Positions 37,035-41,886 of a stretch of DNA of 64,000 nt are shown one piece after another (positions within the stretch are counted from its first letter, which is position 1; every line of letters starts with the position of its first letter). Below the pieces are notes generated by a model that saw only the letters and a list, made by a program, of their open reading frames with translations, did not search any database and had not been told where the DNA came from. The DNA lies in assembly GCF_000230675.1 (NCBI RefSeq), contig NZ_AGIK01000005.1, positions 62,001-126,000 on the forward strand, given 5' to 3'. The position numbers and the translations under genes were made by a program. Source of the stretch: Synechococcus sp. WH 8016. GTDB taxonomy: Bacteria; Cyanobacteriota; Cyanobacteriia; PCC-6307; Cyanobiaceae.

Positions 37035-38243
37035 ATGGACATTCGAAACTCCCTTCGCGATCTCTGTCCAGCACTGGGCAACAAGATCTACTTCAACTAC
37101 GGCGGTCAGGGACCGTTGCCTACGCCTTCATTGGAGGCCATGACCCAAAGCTGGCAGCGCATCCAAGAACTGGGGCCCTTCACTACAGATGTGTGGCCGT
37201 TTATCAGTTCAGAAACAAACAAAACGCGTGCGTTGCTCAGTCGCATGTGTGGTGTGGCACCTCATCGCCTTGCTCTCACCGAAAACGTCACCAGCGGTTG
37301 CGTTTTGCCGCTTTGGGGACTTCCCTTTGAAGCAGGTGATCGCCTCCTAATCAGTGATTGCGAGCACCCAGGAGTCGTAGCTGCATGCCATGAACTTGCC
37401 AGACGGGAACACCTAGAGGTCGACACCCTTCCTGTTCAGCAGTTCAGGCAAGGACGTGAGGCCCAACAGGACACCGACGCAGGCGTTCTTCAAGCTTTGG
37501 AGGACTCTCTACAGCCACGCACCAAAGTGGTGGTGCTATCTCATCTGCTATGGAACACCGGGCAGCTGATGCCCATCCCTGCGGTGGCAGAGCAGCTTGA
37601 TCAGCATGCCCAGCAACCTTTTCTGCTCGTGGATGCAGCTCAAAGCATGGGTCAAATTCCTGTGGGAGCAGCAGCGCAGGCAGCTGATATTTATGCATTC
37701 ACTGGCCACAAATGGGCGTGCGGTCCCGAGGGGCTTGGAGGTGTGGCCTTATCAGAAAGAATTCTCAACCAAGCCAATCCAACCCTGATTGGCTGGCGCA
37801 GCCTGCGCGATGAAACACGCGCCGTGATCGATGATCCAGACCCGTTTCACCACGACAGCCGGCGCTTTGAAATCGCAACGAGCTGTGTGCCATTGATGGC
37901 AGGGCTGCGTCAATCGTTGGGCTTGCTCGCTAGTGAGGCGAACGAGCAACAACGCCTCCAAACCATCCAATCTCTAAGCGGCGAGCTCTATAGAAAGCTG
38001 AATGAGCTTCCAGGAACCACTCCCTTACTCGAAGGGGAGCCCCCCGCAGGATTGGTGAGCTTCCAGCTCAACGATTCATGCTCCCGAAGCACAACTGACA
38101 TCGTAAAAATACTTGGTAGCAAAGGGATTTGGATCCGCAACCTGGAAGAACCCATCTGCCTAAGAGCCTGTACCCACATCACCACAGAAGAACGCGAACT
38201 CACATCCTTCCTGAAGGCTCTTCAAGAGCTGACCGGCATCTAA
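37035..38243 (+). CDS. class V aminotransferase-fold PLP enzyme, cysteine/cystine lyase-like
   Basis: A 402-residue enzyme of the NifS/class V fold: YFNYGGQGPLPTPSLEAM at the start, VLSHLLWNTGQLMPI, VDAAQSMGQIPV and the PLP lysine (Lys226) in FTGHKWACGPEGLGG. The segment resembles cyanobacterial L-cysteine/cystine C-S-lyase (C-DES), which releases sulfane sulfur, more than classical IscS because the mobile Cys loop is missing. It could also be an isopenicillin-N-epimerase-like relative. It converges with the channel gene with a 3-base gap. Confidence 0.85.
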   Translation: MDIRNSLRDLCPALGNKIYFNYGGQGPLPTPSLEAMTQSWQRIQELGPFTTDVWPFISSETNKTRALLSRMCGVAPHRLALTENVTSGCVLPLWGLPFEAGDRLLISDCEHPGVVAACHELARREHLEVDTLPVQQFRQGREAQQDTDAGVLQALEDSLQPRTKVVVLSHLLWNTGQLMPIPAVAEQLDQHAQQPFLLVDAAQSMGQIPVGAAAQAADIYAFTGHKWACGPEGLGGVALSERILNQANPTLIGWRSLRDETRAVIDDPDPFHHDSRRFEIATSCVPLMAGLRQSLGLLASEANEQQRLQTIQSLSGELYRKLNELPGTTPLLEGEPPAGLVSFQLNDSCSRSTTDIVKILGSKGIWIRNLEEPICLRACTHITTEERELTSFLKALQELTGI

Positions 38244-38246
38244 TCC

Positions 38247-39485
38247 TTAAGCCCCTGCAGGTATTAAGTACCAAGACGTCACCACAGCAATTGAGCAAAA
38301 CAACACCATCGAAAGCGGCCAAACCTCATCTAAGAATTCAAGTCTTTTCGAAAGATTATCGCGCGCCTCTCCAAGCGGCATACTTTCCATATCGGCATAA
38401 CGACGTCCAATCCATACCAACAAAACAAACGCAAACAAAGTAACCACATAAGCAATCACATAGACCTGATCTAGAAACGTTAGGAAGGGAAGATCAGGAA
38501 GTTCTCCTCGATAGACCTGCTGTAAGAAAACCAAAGTCAACAAAACTGTTACCGGAATTCCGGCTCGAGCATCTTGTTCGTCTGGACGAATTTTAAAGAC
38601 CAGTAGGACCATCACCATGACCACCAACAAAGGCAACATCAAGCGCCAAAAAGAGGACCAAGATGAGGTTCCAAACGTAATATCATAAAGAATTAGACTA
38701 TAGTCTCGATCAAGTCCACCCAGGCCAAAATTGGTAGCATAATTATGGCGGTACTCAGCAATCGACCAGCCTCGATTCAACCAACCAATGATTCCCGTAC
38801 CTGCATAGAGACCCATCCCGCTATTACGACTATCAGGTTCAAAACGTAGTGTTCCATAGCCAAGACCACCAGCTACATCATCAGCCTCGATCGCAATCGG
38901 CAAACTAATTGTAAGGAAAGGAAAATGTCTAAAGCTTGCTCGATCGATATAAAAACGTCCAACATAAGTATAAAGTTGATAGTAGGTACCATCAGACAAA
39001 ATTGCTGGCTTATCTTGAACAGGATGCAACACAGGATCCGCGTCAGACAACAACGCATTCAGCAACGAAATATGCTCTTGCAAATCCGTATTATTAGCCT
39101 CCAAATAATCCTGAAGAGGCTGTTTCCAACGCATCCATACATAACCGTTCGATGAAAAGCTAGGAATACTTAAATCTAAATCATAGGTACTATTTGAATA
39201 CACCCCGATCTTTACATGATATTGCGCATCATCCAAGGCATCAATATCAGCTTGAATTTCACCTCCACCCAAAGACTCTCCTCGCTGAGAACTCCAACCA
39301 TCACGAGGAAGACGATCCACTGATGTCGTCAAAGCACGAGAAGCTGAAGAAAGGCGCAGGGAATCACGACCTGGCACTTGATCAACATTTAAACTGGTGA
39401 CTCCAACGATAGAAAGCAAGGCTGCCAGAACAACTGACGCGATCGCCAAGATGTTCCACTTTCTCCGTCTTCGAACCTTCGTCAT
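38247..39485 (-). CDS. pentameric ligand-gated ion channel (pLGIC) homologue
   Basis: A 412-residue protein with a signal-anchor helix (about 11-30), a beta-rich extracellular domain (about 40-270) and four C-terminal helices. The Pro-loop FRHFPFLTISLPI matches the Pro-loop of bacterial channels, which lack the eukaryotic Cys pair. M1 (LMLPLLVVMVMVLLVFKI, about 280-299) carries the conserved Pro. M2 (GIPVTVLLTLVFLQQVYRG) leads to GELPDLPFLTFLDQVYVIAY, matching the M2-M3 region of GLIC-type channels (LPxxPYMT). M3 and M4 follow. It is probably a cation or anion channel in the inner membrane. Its ATG overlaps the divergent binding-protein ATG. Family assigned by eye. Confidence 0.78.
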   Translation of the reverse strand: MTKVRRRRKWNILAIASVVLAALLSIVGVTSLNVDQVPGRDSLRLSSASRALTTSVDRLPRDGWSSQRGESLGGGEIQADIDALDDAQYHVKIGVYSNSTYDLDLSIPSFSSNGYVWMRWKQPLQDYLEANNTDLQEHISLLNALLSDADPVLHPVQDKPAILSDGTYYQLYTYVGRFYIDRASFRHFPFLTISLPIAIEADDVAGGLGYGTLRFEPDSRNSGMGLYAGTGIIGWLNRGWSIAEYRHNYATNFGLGGLDRDYSLILYDITFGTSSWSSFWRLMLPLLVVMVMVLLVFKIRPDEQDARAGIPVTVLLTLVFLQQVYRGELPDLPFLTFLDQVYVIAYVVTLFAFVLLVWIGRRYADMESMPLGEARDNLSKRLEFLDEVWPLSMVLFCSIAVVTSWYLIPAGA

Positions 39486-40692
39486 GAAAAAAAAAGCAGC
39501 GAATCAAACAAGTGTGTTACAAGCTAAGCCAATAGCAACGATTCTTCGTAGAAATACCCTGGTAGCGATTGGGCTCAGTCTATCGATCGCCTCCACATCA
39601 GCCCAACAAAAAGAATCCCAAACATACACTGATAGCAAAAGCACGATCCTCCTCGGTCAATCCTTACCACTGAGCGGACCTTCAGCTCAAATCGGGAAAA
39701 AATATCAAGCTGGAGCGCAAGCATGGTTTAACGAAGTGAATCGTCAGGGAGGAATCAATGGAAAAAAAATCCGCTTGATCAGCCTCGACGACCAGTATGA
39801 GCCTGAGCAAACCATCAGAAACACGAAAACCCTGCTGGACCGCCCCAACCTTCTCGCCTTATTTGGGTACGTAGGCACACCAACAACAAAAGAGATCCTT
39901 CCCGTCATTGAAAAAAGAAAAGTCCCTCTCATTGCCCCCCTAACAGGCGCTTCAATCCTGCGAGACAACGAATTGAACATGGTGGTGAATTTAAGGGCCA
40001 GCTATCAAATGGAAATCGATAAAATTGTGGATAGTCTTGTTCGAAATGCGAGACAGAAAATAGCCATTATTTATCAAGATGACGCCTTCGGGAAAGATGG
40101 ACTTAAATCTGCAGAATCAGCGCTAAAAAGGCACGGCCTAAAACCATATGCAATCTCCACAGTTCAAAGAAACTCTGCACAAATACAATCAGCACTTCAA
40201 ATCCTGACGTCAAGCCGACCAAACGCCATCATCATCATCTCGACATACGTCAGCTCGGCAGCATTAAGCAAAGAGTTACTGCAACGAGATATAAAAGCCC
40301 AGATCATGAATGTGTCTTTTGTTGGCACCAGAGCTCTGGAACAATCACTGCCTGTAGGACAAGCCAATGGCATTGGGGTTAGCCAAGTCGTCCCCTTTCC
40401 CTGGGACCGCTGGATTCCTATTGTCGCGGAGTATCAACGCCTCATGCGCGTAAACAATCCTTCAGCCCGATTTGGATTCACAAGCCTGGAAGGATTTATG
40501 GCTGCCAAATTAATCACAGAAGGTATCAAAAATGTCCAAGGGCCACTCACAAAAGAAACTCTCCTCACAAGCCTTAAGTCGATTAAAAAAGTAGACTTGG
40601 GAGGATTTCAGCTAGACTTGTCCAGCAATAACAAGCAAGCTAGCAATTACGTTGAGCTCACATTTTTTGGAGCACAACAATGGGAGCCTTAA
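39484..40692 (+). CDS. periplasmic ligand-binding protein (PBP type 1, LivK/ANF-receptor-like)
   Basis: A 402-residue protein with a signal peptide (RRNTLVAIGLSLSIASTSAQ, about 28-47) and the type 1 two-lobe binding fold: ILLGQSLPLSGPSAQIGK, YQAGAQAWFNEVNRQGGING, KKIRLISLDDQYEPE, LFGYVGTPTTKEIL and AIIYQDDAFGKDG, as in branched-chain amino-acid and amide receptors. The ATG at 39484 shares bases with the divergent channel ATG (CATG). No LivH/M/G/F transporter genes are present, so it may be a sensor or receptor rather than a transport component. A GTG start at 39514 is an alternative. Confidence 0.87.
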   Translation: MKKKAANQTSVLQAKPIATILRRNTLVAIGLSLSIASTSAQQKESQTYTDSKSTILLGQSLPLSGPSAQIGKKYQAGAQAWFNEVNRQGGINGKKIRLISLDDQYEPEQTIRNTKTLLDRPNLLALFGYVGTPTTKEILPVIEKRKVPLIAPLTGASILRDNELNMVVNLRASYQMEIDKIVDSLVRNARQKIAIIYQDDAFGKDGLKSAESALKRHGLKPYAISTVQRNSAQIQSALQILTSSRPNAIIIISTYVSSAALSKELLQRDIKAQIMNVSFVGTRALEQSLPVGQANGIGVSQVVPFPWDRWIPIVAEYQRLMRVNNPSARFGFTSLEGFMAAKLITEGIKNVQGPLTKETLLTSLKSIKKVDLGGFQLDLSSNNKQASNYVELTFFGAQQWEP

Positions 40693-40740
40693 CTTCTGCC
40701 GTAGCAAGGATCTCAACCCCATTTAACCATCAAACAATAC

Positions 40741-41886
40741 ATGCGCTCAGGCCTTCATAAAGTCGACGAACTCATACCCCAAAGCTTGATATCCTCCTTC
40801 GTCCAATCCGGACGCTGGAAGCTGATTCCAGCGCTACTCATGCTGGGGATAACACAGCTGGCCTCGATGCAGGGTTGGCCAACTCTGCTTTGTTTCATTG
40901 TTTCAGCGACAGGCATCATTCCGATCGCCCTGTTGCTTAGCGATGCAACGGAAGAGATTGCAGAACATAGCGGACCAACGATTGGAGCCATCTGCACCGC
41001 AGTGTTTGGCAATTGTGCTGAATTTATTATTGCCCTATCGGCTCTAAGATTGGGCCTTATTGATGTGGTCAAGGCAAGTATTACTGGAGCGATTCTCTCC
41101 GATCTACTCCTCGTTACGGGCGTGGCGATGCTTGTAGGTGGATTGAAGTACAGCGAACAAAGTTTTCAGGAAACCATGGTTCGCACCAACGGTGCGGCCA
41201 TGACCTTAGCTGTCATGGCGATGGCCCTACCTGCATCCCTCATCAGCACATCAGGAATCGATGATCCCGTCGCAATTCATGGCCTATCAATGACTGTTGC
41301 GGCAGTCCTTATTATCATTTACTTCCTAACACTAATATTCTCGCTCGCGACCCATAGCCATCTGTTTAACCCCCAACACAGCCATAATGATGACGCTGAT
41401 GCACCTCAGGAAGCAGCAAAAAAAATAAACTTAGCGCCCTGGATTATTCAATTAATCGTTAGCACAGCGTGCTTGGCTTACCAATCGGAGAGCTTTGTAC
41501 ATTTTTTAGAACCTGCCACAGAACAGCTCGGATTCAGTGCCCTATTTACCGGAATCATCATCATTCCGATCATTGGGGGGTTTTCAGAGTATGTGCCTGC
41601 CGTTAAAGGAGCCTTAAAAAATCAAATGGATCTCCCCATCTCCTTAGCGATGGGATCCAGCTTGCTTGTTGCCCTACTAATCACCCCATCACTGATCATG
41701 ATTGGATCTGTGATCGGTCAGCCCATGGATCTTGACTTCACAGCCTTCGAAGTCATCGCGCTCATCTTTAGTGTCTTAATTGTAAATCTTGTGAATATGG
41801 ACGCAAAATCGAATTGGCTGGAAGGTGTTTTACTCCTGGGAATGTTTTCGATTTTCGGAGCAGCTTTTTACTATTACCCAAGCTAG
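40741..41886 (+). CDS. Ca2+/H+ exchanger homologue (CaCA/Cax family)
   Basis: A 381-residue, 11-helix membrane exchanger. The first alpha repeat has the signature FGNCAEFIIALSALRLG; the second reads IGGFSEYVPAVKGALKNQ instead of the usual GNAAEH...A, so the conserved Asn and His are replaced. An acidic loop with His (NPQHSHNDDADAPQ) separates the halves. It exchanges Ca2+ or another cation for protons. It follows the binding protein by 48 bases in the same direction, so co-transcription is likely. Confidence 0.88.
   Translation: MRSGLHKVDELIPQSLISSFVQSGRWKLIPALLMLGITQLASMQGWPTLLCFIVSATGIIPIALLLSDATEEIAEHSGPTIGAICTAVFGNCAEFIIALSALRLGLIDVVKASITGAILSDLLLVTGVAMLVGGLKYSEQSFQETMVRTNGAAMTLAVMAMALPASLISTSGIDDPVAIHGLSMTVAAVLIIIYFLTLIFSLATHSHLFNPQHSHNDDADAPQEAAKKINLAPWIIQLIVSTACLAYQSESFVHFLEPATEQLGFSALFTGIIIIPIIGGFSEYVPAVKGALKNQMDLPISLAMGSSLLVALLITPSLIMIGSVIGQPMDLDFTAFEVIALIFSVLIVNLVNMDAKSNWLEGVLLLGMFSIFGAAFYYYPS

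Follow-up and report, generated by a model that had tools for sequence, protein, structure and literature searches.

A gene for a predicted pentameric ligand-gated channel, a stand-alone periplasmic binding protein (PBP) of the LivK type and a Cax-type Ca2+/H+ exchanger lie side by side in Synechococcus sp. WH 8016, which raises the question of whether these proteins act together and, if so, which of them belong to the unit. We addressed it with a stretch of 64,000 nucleotides (contig NZ_AGIK01000005.1, positions 62,001 to 126,000), hereafter the window, and with related genomes. The initial annotation had taken the three genes for a possible signalling module in which a ligand opens an ion path and the exchanger restores the gradient. 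Of its layout, the divergent channel and PBP with overlapping starts hold base by base, as the two ATGs share a CATG; GTCATGAAAA is identical in 6/6 aligned genomes of the genus, the window genome counted. For the PBP, a longer frame with a GTG start at 39397 is also possible. An aminotransferase (37035-38243) was considered as a further partner and rejected; its cluster c5 directly adjoins window-type pairs in this genus alone, where 5 genomes have it in that place.

Table 1 Features of the channel-PBP locus and its neighbour (window coordinates).
Feature	Position	Strand	Details
Channel (pentameric ligand-gated homologue, clade A)	38247-39485	-	412 aa ORF
Pore helix M2, channel residues 304-326	38508-38576	-	acidic -2', Arg 0', Pro 4', Leu 9', Phe 13'
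Channel residues 34-80, putative PBP docking segment	39246-39386	-	conservation in paired channels
CATG overlap of the divergent channel and PBP ATGs	39483-39486	.	sequence, alignment
LivK-type PBP, stand-alone	39484-40692	+	402 aa counted from ATG; signal-peptide-like start
Cax-type Ca2+/H+ exchanger	40741-41886	+	381 aa; outside conserved unit

Family profiles respond faintly to the channel. Neur_chan_memb gave a weak match (17.4 bits against a cut-off of 28.1) and Neur_chan_LBD none, as in 14 control genomes of the same search, and the Pfam check proposed at the outset is thus borne out weakly; NCBIfam LGIC_1 reached 1.2e-6, also under its cut-off. A profile built from 48 channel relatives retrieved ELIC (3.6e-21) and GLIC (4e-16 to 5e-14), and an AlphaFold2 model (mean pLDDT 85.7) matched GLIC with an E value of 8.5e-19 and a TM score of 0.79 by target length. 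The predicted model consists of a beta-sandwich ectodomain and four TM helices. The expected fold, whose absence was to have counted against the annotation, is therefore predicted, and both motifs named for the family are present in the sequence, with FPF in the Pro-loop and LPDLPFLT following M2. Specifically, the beta6-beta7 loop carries the proline at its tip, and P189-F190 is invariant in 48/48 rows. From the acidic ring at -2', in the prime numbering that we take to apply to the M2 pore positions (-2' to 13'), the channel may be cation-selective, and it presumably assembles as a pentamer.

GLIC and ELIC resemble the window channel in fold and four-helix pore. The latter differs in having a separate PBP partner gene and, in the model, an N-terminal helix followed by some 40 residues that precede the ectodomain, while its clade lacks the Pro-loop Asp and the pre-M1 basic residue. 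As the alignment demonstrates, column 191 in clade A is occupied by L, V, M, T or N, and G stands at 272 or T at 273; clade C channels have D at column 191, and several other clades have R or K at 272. An acidic residue after Pro-Phe and a basic residue before M1 are called universal by Tasneem et al. (PMC549065); in our view they are common rather than defining traits. Since both are missing in the window clade, the classical gating contact is in doubt.

The partner protein matches Peripla_BP_6 (4.9e-49, 168.3 bits) and has the Venus-flytrap PBP-I fold, its closest solved relative being 4kv7 (TM 0.85 by target). No transporter gene adjoins it, and its description as a LivK-type binding protein without transporter genes stands. 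The 19 rows of window-type PBPs agree fully with the eight urea-pocket columns at Ser274 only, and at the level of sequence the window PBP is not of the UrtA type. The pocket offered no safe answer as to the ligand: GTPT and TGAS are common to 4kv7, and TGAS to 3lop.

We found 44 window-type pairs in 38 genomes, set in 19 flanking-gene combinations that we group into about 11-12 distinct surroundings. Altogether, the fetched regions contain 129 distinct channel genes, of which 53 lie no more than 200 bp from a PBP (39 divergent, 8 tandem with the channel first and 6 convergent). A fourth order, tandem with the PBP first, comes from loci labelled as other phyla: among 22 of these, drawn from the best 80 of 141 candidates in a scan of named genomes, 15 have the PBP gene immediately upstream of the channel and in the same orientation, with ORF gaps of -94 to +50, five of which are -4. 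These phylum labels depend on metagenome bins, and 2 of 79 records are evidently misbinned; these two, labelled Bifidobacterium (L230, 62% identity) and Phycisphaerae (L268, 94%), have window-type pairs and were treated as misbinned cyanobacterial DNA and left out of the 22, in which a locus at a contig edge (L279) counts as unpaired. Additionally, one protein of 750 aa (L217), the only fusion confirmed, joins Peripla_BP_6 to the channel. Other long ORFs near channels, of up to 856 aa, were considered as fusions; the sole one scanned (L141, 778 aa) is without a Pfam domain.

Distances between channels and between PBPs correlate with r=0.967 over the 53 pairs, a value inflated by the species tree and by the gap between two clades, and the nearest relative is identical for channel and PBP in just 35/53 pairs. 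Tandem-duplicated pairs remain matched in both trees. A separate tree was built from 55 Cyanobiaceae rows left after thinning, 24 scan loci and 12 of the 20 fetched other cyanobacterial loci. No such PBP lies within 200 bp of the remaining 76/129 channels, some of them at contig ends, and four window-type channels (G042, G051, G120 and G046) occur without it. Of 20 regions taken from other cyanobacterial families, 19 contain a channel ORF; none yielded a separate PBP, and one channel is the fusion. The scanned neighbours of PBP-less channels are mostly housekeeping genes (DnaJ, HemB, PPK2, TyrS), and a large neighbour cluster, c0, proved to be an artefact merging malate:quinone oxidoreductase with channels. 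Sixteen listed matches, most of them weak or fragmentary, were left unfetched, four being better than 1e-20 (contigs of G282, G291, G298 and G131).

Part of the synteny of the pairs is shared inheritance. The pair might also be a co-travelling cassette, or two genes around a common control region, whose products have no mutual action; the overlapping divergent starts mean that expression may be co-regulated, and some neighbours are common to several pairs. However, convergent and both tandem orders are maintained too, a channel-PBP fusion exists, and a channel segment is altered where the PBP is missing (see below), so we regard such a cassette as very improbable. Together, pairing and fusion bear out the earlier suggestion that a separate PBP partner for the channel is plausible, and the genomic patterns make this partnership well supported.

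The PBP could instead serve an unlinked ABC transporter as an orphan substrate-binding protein, placed beside the channel by chance or hitchhiking. Such transporters are the usual partners of this PBP family, and many of the PDB relatives are annotated accordingly. Against this, the only two PF02653 permeases found in the window genome both lie beside a different, UrtA-type PBP. Above cut-off, this genome has three more Peripla_BP_6 proteins, one next to each of its three channels. Across 24 genomes of the genus, 43 Peripla_BP_6 matches exceed the cut-off: 21 lie at the urea permease locus, 19 adjoin a channel, 1 adjoins a bestrophin-like gene and 2 are unassigned. Three single-contig genomes (G065, G094, G123) together hold five channel-PBP pairs, and PF02653 matches nothing in any of them. 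No urtB-like gene was found in 24 tested clade-C loci, nor in L031 and L074. As far as the PF02653 family goes, a cognate permease was found neither beside the PBP nor free in the genome. With no such PF02653 permease and with the pairing maintained in four gene arrangements and one fusion, we consider a role in transport highly unlikely.

The third gene fares differently. Its identity as a Cax-type exchanger is confirmed by TIGR00378 (326.5 bits, cut-off 211.15), and it does begin 48 bases past the PBP on the same strand, as first described. This proximity, maintained in six genomes of one genus, would suit a three-gene module in which ions enter by the channel and Cax restores the gradient. 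But Cax adjoins the pair in only 6/38 pair-bearing genomes, leaving 32 where it does not, and it outlasts the pair: in G020 most of the channel and of the PBP is gone, apparently by a single deletion that spared Cax and the aminotransferase. Cax orthologues also occur with no pair adjoining them in G078, G162 and G282, where Cax is located elsewhere, and in G184, where the gene is split in two frames. Free separation of the three genes was the outcome that the annotation itself had set against its proposal. Since Cax separates from the pair, gradient restoration by it is unsupported; the three-gene reading is refuted as a general module, we give it next to no chance, and Cax is a chromosomal neighbour of the pair. 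What survives of the signalling module is the partnership of channel and PBP.

To locate where the partners might meet, the conservation of the channel N terminus is informative. R40, R44, G69 and E76 are present in 44/44 paired channels and L72 in 43/44. In one PBP-less lineage (L056/L061/L068; three related genomes, hence one event), 5/9 near-invariant positions within residues 34-80 are changed versus 2/81 elsewhere (p=5.6e-5), although these bounds were picked after this lineage was seen; the narrower bounds 34-73 give 4/7 versus 3/83 (p=4.4e-4). The PBP-less L065 has 4/9 changed versus 1/81 (p=2.4e-4), and a PBP-less decarboxylase-linked clade 6/9 versus 14/81 (p=0.003); few changes in total, 7 and 5, lie behind the tests of the two PBP-less lineages. 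Ten PBP-keeping groups treated in the same way gave no p under 0.19. Eight of them have 0 to 3 changes each, so the convergent clade (3/12 versus 41/123) and L072 (0/9 versus 9/84) are the only informative controls. On these small numbers, residues 34-80 are probably the docking site of the PBP.

Predicted folds, pairing in many arrangements, the lack of a matching permease family and N-terminal changes without the PBP form the computed basis for considering channel and PBP as one receptor of two proteins, which we judge to be likely. The PBP would be exported to the periplasm, bind a small molecule and close on it, dock on channel residues 34-80 and thereby shift the gate, letting ions cross the plasma membrane; here we infer both the physical docking and the direction of gating. 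A PBP acting in this way would be the channel's ligand-binding subunit and not that of an ABC transporter. Alternatively, the PBP may merely concentrate the ligand or hand it to the channel's own site, without stable docking, as put forward for other bacteria by Tasneem et al. (PMC549065). Such a hand-over would account for channels living without a PBP, whereas the fusion protein and the N-terminal invariants altered in PBP-less channels point to contact, and we hold it to be rather unlikely. The two explanations overlap.

A receptor of two proteins would have parallels in known systems. Tar with maltose-binding protein and LuxP-LuxQ employ a loose PBP to present a ligand to a membrane receptor; the likeness lies in this loose partner, while the proposed output here is an ion channel. 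Animal glutamate receptors have PBP modules joined to channels, and picocyanobacteria would, if the proposal is true, possess a loose two-protein counterpart. To our knowledge, little has been established about what bacterial pentameric channels, the models for nerve receptors, bind in nature and what they do in the cell. PBP ligands can be discovered by simple binding screens; if the PBP reads the ligand, the agonist question becomes testable, since a PBP ligand would be a candidate channel agonist.

The idea of a PBP cooperating with a pentameric channel was already proposed in 2004/5 by Tasneem et al., who describe alphaproteobacterial channels fused to PBP-I, stand-alone PBP-II or Cache neighbours, and a simple architecture for cyanobacterial channels (PMC549065). 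The pairs described here differ from those systems (PMC549065) in having a stand-alone PBP, of the LivK or urea type, for which there is no matching permease, and in occurring in Cyanobiaceae and in records labelled as three further phyla. DeCLIC (PMC9897478) is likewise a bacterial pentameric channel with an extra periplasmic module, its jelly-roll lobes being part of one chain where the window system has a separate PBP.

A second channel clade has urea-type PBPs as partners; the records that contain it bear the labels Cyanobacteria, Pseudomonadota, Myxococcota and Verrucomicrobiota. Its partner PBPs share all eight urea-pocket residues with UrtA, as given in PMC10392092, in 22/22 cases; in contrast to UrtA, they adjoin a channel, and no urtB-like gene is close by. 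TIGR03407 scored 436 to 558 bits on six of them, two exceeding the cut-off of 492.75. An operon with a bestrophin-like channel contains a further PBP clade that branches among or beside the window-type PBPs; two broken copies (L158, L159) and a fragment (G274) were left out of the check for the bestrophin gene. We tentatively raise the possibility, in which we have somewhat less than even confidence, of a general bacterial receptor class with a detachable PBP subunit, which would span at least two pentameric-channel clades and an unrelated bestrophin-like channel and whose urea-type branch would be urea-gated ion channels. Such channels, if real, would be the first that we know of, and this sister branch points to urea as a concrete candidate agonist. 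The urea-type channel-PBP branch is also represented, at about 768530-770922 of contig 1, in the window genome.

The three genes of the window, encoding a channel homologue, a periplasmic binding protein (PBP) and a Ca2+ exchanger, lie where the initial annotation had placed them (see table). The divergent channel and PBP start codons indeed overlap, in a CATG that is identical in six of six aligned genomes. The PBP proved to be a LivK-type flytrap, as judged by Pfam and predicted structure, and the exchanger is a clear Cax. For the 412-residue channel protein the family assignment stood, not through the usual Pfam models, which match weakly or not at all, but through other comparisons: a 48-sequence channel profile matched ELIC at 3.6e-21, and structure prediction (mean pLDDT 85.7) yields a pentameric-channel subunit, with GLIC as the best PDB match (E 8.5e-19, TM 0.79 by target). 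Beyond this subunit, the model contains an N-terminal helix (residues 2–31) and a roughly 40-residue segment ahead of the ectodomain.

Coordinates of the genes and loci discussed in the text
Feature	Location	Strand	Description
Channel	window 38247-39485	-	pentameric ligand-gated channel homologue
PBP	window 39484-40692	+	LivK-type
Cax	window 40741-41886	+	exchanger
Second putative receptor pair of the window's genome	G000 contig 1, ~768530-770922 (L117:8749-11195)		channel, then urea-type PBP with eight pocket residues
Fusion	L217:4765-7017		PBP and channel in one protein
Bestrophin-linked PBP	L151:5176-8146		example of a PBP followed by a bestrophin-like gene
Decarboxylase-linked channel	L051:12274-13509		related channel clade
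Channel near chemotaxis gene	L212:5854-9081		another cyanobacterium

The pairing of channel and PBP genes is real and wide: the regions fetched around channels include 44 window-type pairs in 38 genomes. Overall, a PBP lies within 200 bp of 53 of 129 distinct channel genes (85 genomes), with 39 pairs divergent, 6 convergent and 8 tandem in channel-PBP order, and the same PBP model finds just one further PBP (at locus L087) elsewhere in these regions. The paired channels belong to two separate clades. In clade A, which holds the window's channel, 44 of 49 rows are paired, one of the five unpaired rows (L052) being cut by a contig end; in clade C, 9 of 11 rows are paired, with urea-type PBPs of a different family. 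A scan of named genomes kept the best 79 of 141 candidate loci, among which the nearest named records from cyanobacteria, L222 and L223 (both labelled Synechococcus), carry channels 88 and 74% identical to the window's. Among the same best 79 of 141, 22 loci are labelled as other phyla. In 15 of them a same-strand PBP immediately precedes the channel; six lack one, and the last is truncated by the edge of its contig. Apart from the PBP, no gene is a neighbour at more than two of these loci. In the tree, clade C (SH-aLRT 100, 22 of 24 rows paired) comprises records labelled Cyanobacteria, Pseudomonadota, Myxococcota and Verrucomicrobiota. Additionally, a 750-residue protein from another cyanobacterial family carries Peripla_BP_6 at residues 32–343 and the channel at its end. 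Together, the pair counts, the other-phyla loci and this fusion give head-to-head, tail-to-tail, both tandem and fused arrangements. Counting against generality, the 20 regions taken from other cyanobacterial families (19 with a channel ORF) yielded no stand-alone PBP. Loci L063 and L055 each contain two tandem pairs, with each channel and its own PBP in matching places in two trees. Window-type pairs also occur in records labelled Bifidobacterium breve (L230) and Phycisphaerae (L268), with channel identities of 62% and 94%; both records are likely misbinned.

The exchanger, which had been proposed as a third member, is no part of the channel-PBP unit. Cax borders only 6 of the 44 window-type pairs, all in one genus; a seventh, at L129, is close to an unrelated channel that has no PBP. 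Across 299 genomes of the order, relatives, many of them weak, were counted for the channel in 88, the PBP in 91 and Cax in 148. In genome G020, apparently by a single deletion, only the tails of the PBP and channel genes are left and now abut, next to intact Cax and aminotransferase genes. In genome G184, Cax, split in two frames, adjoins the aminotransferase end, leaving a gap too small for a channel-PBP pair. The aminotransferase/murE region is a possible channel hot spot; L036 (genome G083), L032 and L034 show two or three different channels around these genes.

The channel-linked PBPs have no matching transporter of the PF02653 permease family that was searched. Profile search detected only two such permeases in the window's genome, beside a UrtA-type PBP; the other three above-cut-off Peripla_BP_6 proteins each abut one of its three channels, and a fifth match is weak and below cut-off. 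Across 24 genomes of the genus, the 43 above-cut-off Peripla_BP_6 proteins divide into 21 at a permease locus (20 immediately next to the permease, plus an extra copy in G113 some 2 kb off), 19 at a channel, 1 at a bestrophin-like gene and 2 assigned to none of these (G055, G094). The single-contig genomes G065, G094 and G123 together have five pairs of channel and PBP and gave no match to PF02653, and the sole urea-type PBP found there is the channel's partner.

Sequence comparison points to channel residues 34–80 as the probable PBP docking site. When the 44 paired channels of clade A were aligned with relatives lacking a PBP, 90 positions proved near-invariant. In one PBP-less lineage (L056/L061/L068), most rows changed at R40, R44, G69, L72 and E76, plus two positions outside the interval; in a second (L065), changes fall at L45, R68, G69 and D80, plus one outside. 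Both lineages show significant clustering within the interval (p 5.6e-5 and 2.4e-4); the second is the better test, since the interval was chosen after seeing the first. Clustering is weaker in a PBP-less decarboxylase-linked clade (p 0.003). None of ten PBP-keeping control groups gave p below 0.19; because eight have three or fewer changes, the informative ones are the convergent clade (3/12 within the interval versus 41/123 elsewhere) and L072 (0/9 versus 9/84). Genome search of G042, G051 and G120 found no match to the window's PBP, and their sole above-cut-off Peripla_BP_6 protein is at the permease locus.

In the prime numbering of the pore, the aligned clade-A channels conserve an acidic side chain (-2'), Arg (0'), Leu (9') and Phe (13'); by analogy with GLIC, this pattern suggests cation selectivity. 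The Pro-loop Asp, kept in clade C, and the basic residue before M1, kept in several other clades, are absent from the clade-A alignment, so coupling may differ from the textbook scheme.

Eight residues around urea are important in UrtA of Prochlorococcus (PMC10392092). Residue comparison with UrtA shows no urea pocket in the window's PBP; the clade-C partners keep all eight of the residues described there (22/22), including one on contig 1 of the window's genome, whose pair is a candidate urea-gated channel. The clade-C loci tested revealed no urtB-like gene. One clade-C partner, the L111 PBP, groups with UrtA itself in the tree and may be a second UrtA. In several genomes (L051, L076, L080–L083, L085), a related channel clade lies downstream of clusters encoding a pyridoxal-dependent decarboxylase, a dCache-like protein and an MFS transporter, identified by scanning one member of each; the ligand is perhaps a self-made amine.

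Help from PBPs for pentameric channels has been proposed before. Tasneem et al. describe alphaproteobacterial PBP-I fusions as well as separate PBP-II genes in the vicinity of such channels, and propose that these PBPs assist the receptors (PMC549065). The words "periplasmic" and "operon" are absent from the main text of a 2016 inventory (PMC4795631). Among the matches listed, whose coverage left out subscription journals and preprints, titles and abstracts do not describe LivK- or urea-type pairing, a transporter-free census or a docking segment.

A further PBP clade, about 40% identical to the window's PBP, falls within or next to the window-type PBPs in the trees; its fetched regions contain no pentameric channel. 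A bestrophin-like gene (PF14023) follows the PBP in all seven loci with an intact copy (L151–L157), and the next gene encodes a PBP_like_2 protein in four of four tested. Since bestrophins are anion channels, PBP partners would then occur with a second channel family, one unrelated to the pentameric channels. At L212, the channel gene lies two genes ahead of one for a methyl-accepting chemotaxis protein.
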